From Datnioides undecimradiatus (taxonomy: Eukaryota > Chordata > Actinopteri > Lobotiformes > Datnioididae), in the NCBI GenBank assembly GCA_008933995.1, contig WARS01000015.1:5087861-5151860 (forward strand): a stretch of 64,000 nucleotides of DNA. Direction: 5' to 3'. Shown one piece after another: positions 23,101 through 24,341 of this stretch; the first letter of the stretch is position 1, and each line of letters starts with the position of its first letter. A model generated the notes under the pieces. The model ran no database searches, had not been told where the DNA came from, and worked only from the letters and a program-made list of their open reading frames with translations. The position numbers and the translations under genes were made by a program.

Positions 23101-24341
23101 TCAACAGAACGCACAATCATTTCATTTCCATCAATAATGCATCTTTTGAATCAGTGATTGCAAAGATAAACTAAATAGCTGCCGGCCATCAGTAAAACTA
23201 TATATGAGGGAAAAACAACGGAAGCAGAGTGTCATACCCTAGTGTGACACACATCACAGCACTAAACACAACAGACTATTAAATCTGACACGTTGCCTCT
23301 CCAACACCTCGCCAATCACACTCCAGATACCAAACATGGTCACAGACAAAGCGGCTGACCGTAACAATGTCGGGTCCTCGATAATACATCTCTCTGTCTG
23401 TTTCAACAAAACAGCAAATATACTGTGATTGAAGATGTGTAACTGAATGTCAGAGCAACTACAAAACTGATAAATAAGTGTTAAGTCGATAAAGTGATCA
23501 GATTATCAATAACTCTTGAACTTGACTCATTTTGCGTAGCAGAGAGGCTTATGTGTGAACTTCTAGAGGTTGCTGATTTACCATATTATATGAATATCTG
23601 AAAATAATTATCTATTTGCTGTGTAAACATGTTTTTGACATGACATCTTGCCTCAAATTAACTTTTATTAGTCCAGCTGAAAGACAAAACACAGAGCTGC
23701 AACTGCCAAAATCCTACGATTTAATGATTGGAAAATAAAATGAATGTGATTGGAAGAACACCTCAGCTGGGTCTTTTTAGAGCTGCTGGTTTTGATAAAT
23801 CCTAAGCATACTGCTGTGGTTAGCATTTAACATTACATGTAACATAACTGACTTGAATGATTCCCTGATGTAAAACCACCATATGCGTGTTATGTTTAGG
23901 ATCAAGTATACATCAGTTGCTACATATTTGAAGCAGATCTCCAAAACTGACTGTCATCACGAGTTCCTAACAGACGGCAGGCACTGCAGAGCAGAGTGCA
24001 GACTGAGGCTGCAACTTTTAAAAGTAACTCAGATGTATCAAAACAAAGTGTACCAGTGAGATAGAAGAGCAGAGAGAGCAAAAACACCAATACAGTTTAC
24101 AGTACAGAGGAAAGAAGTCTTAACCACACAATAAAAAGTTGGAGAAAATCTCTAAGTTTGCATTAGTGCAAAACAAACTTTAGCCAAAACAGCATTAGTG
24201 TTGAGGGAGGCAAGAGACGGTTTGCAGTAACTCACCGTGTGCTTGCGTGTGAAAAGAGAACAGTCCAAGCAACAGCAGTGGACTCCGGCTCCAGAGACAG
24301 AGAGAGAGACAGCGCTGCAGCCTTTCTCCCTGCACTGTCAT
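2027..24341 (-). CDS. bmpr1b: BMP receptor type 1B (ALK6), 11 coding exons, 541 aa
   Basis: Type I receptor serine/threonine kinase for BMP/GDF ligands at the plasma membrane. In the known pathway a type II receptor phosphorylates the GS loop, and the active kinase then phosphorylates Smad1/5/9. CDS = join of 24341-24236, 8239-8083, 7823-7724, 6600-6498, 5721-5625, 5524-5386, 5034-4842, 3783-3486, 2683-2508, 2370-2240 and 2152-2027; total 1626 nt. Every intron is GT-AG and the frame is open throughout. Features seen: signal peptide (1 to about 36); ten-cysteine three-finger ectodomain (72-142, ending CCTDEDYCN); membrane helix (166-187); GS loop SSGSGSG (224-230); kinase glycine loop GKGRYGEV (250-257), VAVK lysine K270, helix-C glutamate about E283, L45 loop (304-312), HRDLKSKN (369-376), DLG (389-391), MPPE (417-420). 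The C-terminus ends SESQDIKL, as in BMPR1B and unlike BMPR1A. Whether it is paralogue ba or bb is undetermined. Confidence 0.96.
2240..2370 (-). CDS. bmpr1b: bmpr1b coding exon 10 (kinase C-lobe)
   Basis: A 131-nt exon coding residues 457-500; acceptor gttgcag|GGATC, donor GACGAG|gtaaaa. It codes [20 protein letters not shown] and [13 protein letters not shown], conserved C-lobe segments of the BMPR1 kinases. It is separated from exon 9 by 137 bp and from the last exon by only 87 bp. Confidence 0.97.
2508..2683 (-). CDS. bmpr1b: bmpr1b coding exon 9 (activation segment)
   Basis: A 176-nt exon coding residues 398-456; acceptor tctgcag|TGACA, donor GGAG|gtaaat. It contains the activation segment [20 protein letters not shown] and the MPPE motif (417-420, the APE equivalent). 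The [13 protein letters not shown] helix-F region, ending ARRCVSGG across the junction, completes it. It is typical of BMPR1 kinases. Confidence 0.97.
3486..3783 (-). CDS. bmpr1b: bmpr1b coding exon 8 (kinase hinge and catalytic loop)
   Basis: A 298-nt exon, the largest coding exon, coding residues 299-397; acceptor ctcgcag|GTTTT, donor ATCAG|gtgag. It begins [20 protein letters not shown], which contains the L45 loop that sets BMP-type Smad1/5/9 specificity in this family. It then carries catalytic HRDLKSKN (369-376) and the metal-binding DLG (389-391) in place of the usual DFG, as is normal for type I receptors. All catalytic residues are present. Confidence 0.97.
4842..5034 (-). CDS. bmpr1b: bmpr1b coding exon 7 (kinase N-lobe)
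   Basis: A 193-nt exon coding residues 235-298 plus one base of 299; acceptor cctcag|GTGCA, donor ACTGG|gtaag. It begins [14 protein letters not shown], contains the ATP-binding glycine loop GKGRYGEV (250-257) and the invariant lysine in VAVKVFF (K270), and includes helix C ([10 protein letters not shown]). Exon length and phases match the conserved exon structure of the type I receptor family. Confidence 0.97.
5386..5524 (-). CDS. bmpr1b: bmpr1b coding exon 6 (juxtamembrane and GS loop)
   Basis: A 139-nt exon coding residues 188-234; acceptor tgcacag|GTATA, donor TATTG|gtgag. It begins [20 protein letters not shown] and ends in the glycine-serine activation loop [11 protein letters not shown]. 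In this family the serines are phosphorylated by the type II receptor, and the adjoining LP segment is contacted by FKBP12 (family knowledge). The GS motif is intact. The next intron is 351 bp. Confidence 0.97.
5625..5721 (-). CDS. bmpr1b: bmpr1b coding exon 5 (transmembrane helix)
   Basis: A 97-nt exon coding residues 156-187; acceptor ctctctag|TCTAC, donor TTCAG|gtaaac. A short juxtamembrane stretch YVDGKLHH precedes an uninterrupted hydrophobic helix of about 22 residues (166-187: [10 protein letters not shown] then [12 protein letters not shown]). The helix ends at the split Arg188 and the stop-transfer residues YKRQ of exon 6. The stretch [10 protein letters not shown] is characteristic of BMPR1B. 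Confidence 0.95.
6498..6600 (-). CDS. bmpr1b: bmpr1b coding exon 4 (ectodomain end)
   Basis: A 103-nt exon coding residues 122-155 plus one base of 156; acceptor tctcccag|GACAT, donor CCTC|gtaagt. It carries the [14 protein letters not shown] signature, with cysteines 134, 135 and 141 that close the three-finger fold. The proline-rich stalk [10 protein letters not shown] follows, just before the membrane exon. The ten cysteines across exons 2-4 match the five disulfides expected for the fold. Confidence 0.95.
7724..7823 (-). CDS. bmpr1b: bmpr1b coding exon 3 (ectodomain)
   Basis: A 100-nt exon coding residues 88-121, with acceptor ttttacag|GACGG and donor CAGG|gtgag. It begins with the family motif TDGYCFTM and ends with GSEFQCR, both diagnostic of the BMPR1A/B ligand-binding domain. 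It contains cysteines 93, 110 and 120. The loop between them ([14 protein letters not shown]) is more hydrophobic than the mammalian acidic loop I recall. It lies 259 bp from exon 2 and 1123 bp from exon 4. Confidence 0.95.
8083..8239 (-). CDS. bmpr1b: bmpr1b coding exon 2 (ectodomain start; internal ATG)
   Basis: Codes residues 36-87 and two bases of 88. The acceptor is tttatag|GC and the donor is TGCAG|gtatgg. It holds NILDS followed by MLLRAS; the internal ATG at 8222-8220 corresponds to the start usually annotated in mammals. It then carries a Ser/Glu-rich stretch with the STAP motif and the first four ectodomain cysteines (72, 74, 78, 87) in the CxCxxxCPEDS pattern typical of BMPR1B. N84 lies in an N-N-T-C sequon, a possible N-glycosylation site. 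The frame stays open from the acceptor to the internal ATG, as expected if the upstream codons are translated. Confidence 0.95.
14327..14373 (+). repeat. (TG)23 microsatellite
   Basis: An uninterrupted TG dinucleotide run within bmpr1b intron 1. Confidence 0.95.
14640..14720 (+). repeat. Possible decayed tRNA-derived SINE fragment
   Basis: A B-box-like ggttcaaatctgg near 14696 lies about 42 bp after an A-box-like tggctgtgaactgg near 14655, roughly the spacing of a tRNA promoter. The overall order resembles tRNA-derived fish SINEs. No acceptor-stem complementarity was found, so it is not a tRNA gene. Confidence 0.3.
19879..19915 (+). repeat. (CA)n microsatellite
   Basis: A CA run of about 18 units, preceded by a short CT-rich segment, within bmpr1b intron 1. 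Confidence 0.95.
21739..21832 (+). repeat. Tandem duplication, two 47-bp units
   Basis: Units at 21739-21785 and 21786-21832 share caatcaatcatct, gtgtca, ccaa, gaat and the end gctgttgct, with about ten substitutions between them and no indels. It is a local head-to-tail duplication inside intron 1. Confidence 0.7.
24236..24341 (-). CDS. bmpr1b: bmpr1b coding exon 1 (signal peptide)
   Basis: Codes residues 1-35 plus the first base of 36. It starts at the ATG at 24341-24339, with A at -3 (ACC ATG A). An in-frame TGA at 24413-24411 closes the frame upstream, so this is the first in-frame ATG. The peptide has a basic N-region (GERLQR), a hydrophobic core [11 protein letters not shown] and then HTQAH, a plausible signal-peptidase site. 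The exon ends ACACG|gtgag, phase 1, which joins in frame to the phase-1 acceptor at 8239. The junction peptide [15 protein letters not shown] resembles the HTRA-NFLDNMLLR region of the longer human isoform as I recall it. That resemblance, together with the exact phase fit, is the main support. Confidence 0.8.

Follow-up and report, generated by a model that had tools for sequence, protein, structure and literature searches.

The commonly used mammalian form of BMPR1B comprises 502 aa and starts at an internal Met. For human BMPR1B, a long isoform of 532 aa is also known (O00238-2, RefSeq isoform a), in which an upstream hydrophobic N-terminus runs in frame to an N-x-L-D-x motif before MLLR, with HTxA near the junction. 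BMPR1A has a phase-1 intron (c.67/c.68) that splits the Gly codon ahead of QNLDSML. The literature searched did not confirm this exon boundary, the sole co-mention of BMPR1A and c.68-1G concerning ENG (PMC10048779).

Two further vertebrates provide points of comparison. For sheep follicles, one report describes a splice acceptor mapped by 5' RACE 17 bp before the ATG and three upstream leader arrangements (variants I-III), which join exon 2 at this point and are all called 5' UTR (PMC6600593). For zebrafish, one study draws bmpr1ba and bmpr1bb with 14 and 15 exons, respectively, and places W256 of Bmpr1bb in the intracellular domain (PMC13095126), and another states that the morpholino targets of both genes sit upstream of the start sites (PMC7478894).

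Here, we analysed a 64-kb window, i.e. the whole stretch of fish DNA under study, and found a bmpr1b gene on its minus strand. The segment 24341-24236 is very likely its first coding exon, encoding a signal peptide and joined over a 16-kb intron to position 8239.

Materials and Methods

The gene model was built by joining exons at GT-AG sites. Donor sites were scored in bits with a frequency table, and signal peptides were judged by simple rules, namely charge, an uncharged core, a cleavage site and a purine at -3 of the start codon. Candidate signal-like exons were ATG-to-phase-1-donor stretches upstream of 8239, with 200 third-order Markov simulations of this 55.8-kb region as the null. We applied loose limits (donor 6 bits, core 2.0), middle limits (8 bits, 2.2) and strictest limits equal to exon 1's own values, all of them post hoc and chosen with exon 1 already in view.

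Gene model and protein identity

The bmpr1b gene extends from 24341 to 2027, with 11 exons joined at GT-AG sites (Table 1). Their joined CDS of 1626 nt including the stop has no internal stops and encodes 541 aa, reproducing the stop-free reading frame and the 541-aa receptor of the original prediction. The arithmetic of the phase-1 join from 24236 to the NILDS codons at 8239, which had been claimed to be exactly in frame, holds as well. Two AATAAA polyadenylation-like signals occur at 1210 and 1191 (minus strand), about 0.8 kb 3' of the bmpr1b stop.

Table 1. Features of the bmpr1b locus in window coordinates
Feature	Position	Strand	Remarks
Putative 5' UTR	24342..24500	-	extent arbitrary; in-frame TGA 24413-24411
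Exon 1, first coding (very likely)	24236..24341	-	106 nt = 35 codons + 1 nt
Intron 1	8240..24235	-	GTGAGT...TTTTATAG, phase 1, 15,996 nt
Exon 2	8083..8239	-	17 nt, then internal ATG at 8222; ectodomain start
Exon 3, ectodomain	7724..7823	-	
Exon 4, ectodomain	6498..6600	-	
Exon 5, transmembrane segment	5625..5721	-	about aa 165-185
Exon 6, most of GS motif	5386..5524	-	
Exon 7, GS motif end and kinase start	4842..5034	-	
Exon 8, kinase	3486..3783	-	
Exon 9, kinase	2508..2683	-	
Exon 10, kinase	2240..2370	-	
Exon 11, kinase end	2027..2152	-	

By its sequence, the 541-aa product is BMPR1B. In a Pfam scan, PF01064, PF08515, PF07714 and PF00069 all passed the cut-offs, corresponding to an activin-type ectodomain, a GS motif and a kinase. 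The best PDB match of the whole protein was the BMPR1B chain 3mdy (1.6e-223, 746 bits), compared with 514 bits for TGFBR1 and 481 bits for ACVR1, and the BMPR1A kinase was not found among the best 60 PDB rows. A PDB search with the N-terminal 156 residues likewise gave 132.6 bits for BMPR1B (3evs) versus at most 105.6 bits for BMPR1A-named chains. A 164-aa piece of the kinase, scanned once against genome contigs and once against viral contigs, yielded no confirmed relative.

The probable first coding exon and its predicted signal peptide

Exon 1 opens in the start context ACC ATG A, and its reading frame is bounded by the in-frame TGA 24 codons 5' of this ATG, with no intervening ATG. It ends ACG/GTGAGT in phase 1, the split codon being that of Gly36. 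The donor scores 10.67 bits, a value reached by only 10 of the 4329 minus-strand GTs, and the nine other donors of bmpr1b range from 5.53 to 13.04 bits. The encoded peptide has an N-region with R7, R10 and R19, a core LLLLGLFSF and a c-region HTQAH/G, and it follows the signal-peptide rules with a net charge of +2, an uncharged hydrophobic core and small residues at -3/-1 (TQA/HG, AHG/NI). The ATG, the LLLLGLF core and the GTGAG phase-1 donor named in the original prediction are therefore all present, its good Kozak context consisting of the A at -3 without a G at +4. Further 5', an upstream ORF of 23 codons (24500-24429, minus strand; context TGC ATG C) lies in the frame of the main ATG and ends in a stop; it is relevant only if the transcript begins 5' of it.

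How would this exon act? The open and bounded frame, the splice signals and their phase are observed, as are the short form without a hydrophobic N-terminus and the BMPR1A-like residues across its Met. Transcription would begin at some point 5' of 24341, translation would start from the ATG at this position, and the first exon would be spliced to 8239 across the phase-1 intron. Exon 1 encodes or shares 36 residues, which would form a classical cleavable signal peptide and direct the protein to the ER, with cleavage most likely after Gly36 (AHG/NILDS), which we take to be the equivalent of the mature BMPR1A start, or two residues earlier after Ala34 (TQA/HG). The ectodomain would thereby end up outside the cell.

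Could the true signal exon lie elsewhere?

An alternative is that the true signal exon lies elsewhere, in the window or upstream of it, and that the exon at 24236 is a chance ORF, which we consider unlikely. Chance rates for signal-like exons are indeed high at loose limits, and bmpr1b may reach past the window edge. With the signal rules applied, a single candidate was observed at each of the three post hoc settings. At least one was found in 121 of the 200 nulls at the loose limits and in 41 of 200 at the middle limits, the plus strand holding one in both cases, while at exon 1's own limits the figure fell to 4 of 200 and the plus strand held none. Without the signal rules, the loose limits gave three observed versus 2.4-2.6 expected, which is indistinguishable from chance, and the middle limits gave two versus a null mean of 0.45-0.48. 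At exon 1's own values without these rules one was observed, with none on the plus strand and one in 20 first-order nulls; in larger sets at this strictest setting, at least one occurred in 5 of 100 first-order and 3 of 100 third-order nulls. By themselves, the sequence features of exon 1 are thus moderately above chance, and they lend it only moderate support because of the chance rates at the middle and loose limits and because all limits were set post hoc. The support is raised by the fact that a BMP type I receptor needs a signal peptide exactly there.

Screening with the loose donor and core limits gave five candidates, and only the one at 24341 satisfies all four rules (charge, uncharged core, cleavage site and -3 purine). 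A second hydrophobic candidate, 25809-25710 (minus strand), encodes MYQTKQIHPDLAHLKSALLLITFVTWLLLRACT/G and has a phase-1 donor of 7.9 bits and a hydropathy of 2.59, equal to that of exon 1, but its start context is poor (CTA ATG T) and it does not resemble the human long N-terminus (P 0.95). The ATG at 24341 has a better start context and donor, and its exon overlaps the GC peak described below.

Comparison with other BMP type I receptors

Aligned to the human N-terminus IFLLILLSMHTRA, the exon-1 residues gave a permutation P of 0.014, or 0.017 when core and c-region were shuffled apart, versus 0.37-0.95 for three of the four other candidates. The human letters had no match in the literature searched. 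The fish protein has 41 residues before MLLR versus 30 in the human long isoform, the sequences differ, and the junction differs in length by two residues. The resemblance of the junction to the long human isoform, claimed in the original prediction, thus appears as a similarity of letters and not as an identity of length. BMPR1A shares LDSML at the start of the ectodomain, but its signal peptide is not significantly like exon 1 (P 0.11).

Is the long N-terminus also used in zebrafish? The fish protein has tryptophans at 258 and 262 in the long numbering and at 239 and 270 in the short numbering. Since the zebrafish W256 fits the former pair better, zebrafish Bmpr1bb too seems to be numbered from a long N-terminus, if few insertions separate the proteins. 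Further 5' exons of the fish gene are likely, as the zebrafish genes are drawn with 14 and 15. The bmpr1ba morpholino target scored 20.5 inside exon 1 (P 0.019), with 37 of 2116 other segments equal or better, and the bmpr1bb target scored 20.0 upstream near exon 1 (shuffled P 0.06), with 128 of 2116 segments as good. Elsewhere in the window, unrelated control oligos scored higher than either target, and the morpholino targets are therefore uninformative.

The layout proposed here appears to be already known, in view of the long human isoform and the probable zebrafish numbering, and is what would be expected of a gene for a BMP type I receptor. The assignment of exon 1 is probably correct and describes an ordinary gene layout.

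Exon 2 and the short MLLR start

Exon 2 begins with two bases of the split Gly codon and AAT ATA TTG GAC AGC (NILDS), followed by the internal ATG. A product from this ATG would have 500 aa and no hydrophobic N-terminus, its best 9-residue hydropathy within the first 45 residues being 0.07 versus 2.60 for the long form. Eight BMPR1A-named PDB chains matched; for six of them the alignment begins at query residue 38 or 39, ahead of Met42, and for the other two only at residue 69 or 70. In the four alignments inspected, LDSML sits on LDSML, the part before the Met covering only 3-4 residues. Because BMPR1A ectodomain chains align across it, Met42, the start of the short form, looks like an internal residue of the ectodomain.

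It is nonetheless conceivable, albeit very unlikely in our estimation, that 24341-24236 is a 5' UTR or a minor first exon and that most protein starts at 8222. The internal ATG has an A at -3, and the description of the sheep leaders, which join 17 bp before the ATG, calls all of them 5' UTR (PMC6600593), so that translation from the short start may occur as well. The shared 17-nt distance in fish and sheep supports the acceptor and not coding as such. Against a predominant internal start stand the low hydropathy of the short form and the resemblance to BMPR1A of the residues just before the Met. Lacking a hydrophobic N-terminus, the short-form ectodomain would have no evident way into the ER. 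The short form has no signal-like segment, which bears out the earlier view that the MLLR start makes a poor signal peptide and, together with the BMPR1A alignment, that a model with its start at 8222 would miss the secretion signal.

If exon 2 were left unspliced at its 5' end, an in-frame ATG at 8312 would open a hydrophobic stretch (8312-8240, minus strand; hydropathy 2.13) that reads in frame into NILDS. This stretch can practically be dismissed as the source of the signal, as its codons coincide with the acceptor's polypyrimidine tract, its start context TTC ATG is weak and sheep uses an acceptor at the same distance (PMC6600593).

With the signal peptide placed in exon 1, expression constructs, knock-down oligos and residue numbers could mislead if they are derived from a model that starts at 8222 and has no secretion signal. 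A question is also raised for the short mammalian BMPR1B, which often serves as the reference: does it reach the surface by itself? We tentatively speculate that the short MLLR start might reflect faulty annotation or give just a minor product across vertebrates, that the long form makes the surface receptor, and that the choice of the 5' exon, signal or leader, would switch the amount at the surface. Beyond the correction of a naive gene model, the finding has little consequence.

Sequence surroundings of exon 1

Exon 1 is CT-rich in part and has no second match within the window. Among 1272 segments of 400 bp, the one highest in GC starts at 24251 inside exon 1 and extends upstream, and the best segment containing all of exon 1 ranks third, as might be expected at a first exon. 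CpG is low at exon 1, with no enrichment. Neither Rfam nor a tRNA scan gave a hit in the window, and Pfam assigned no family to the 10 open frames searched among the 30 of at least 110 aa. The upstream flank of exon 1 holds simple repeats that are also present elsewhere in the window, and a GAGAA pentanucleotide array of 31.6 copies occupies 33241-33396.
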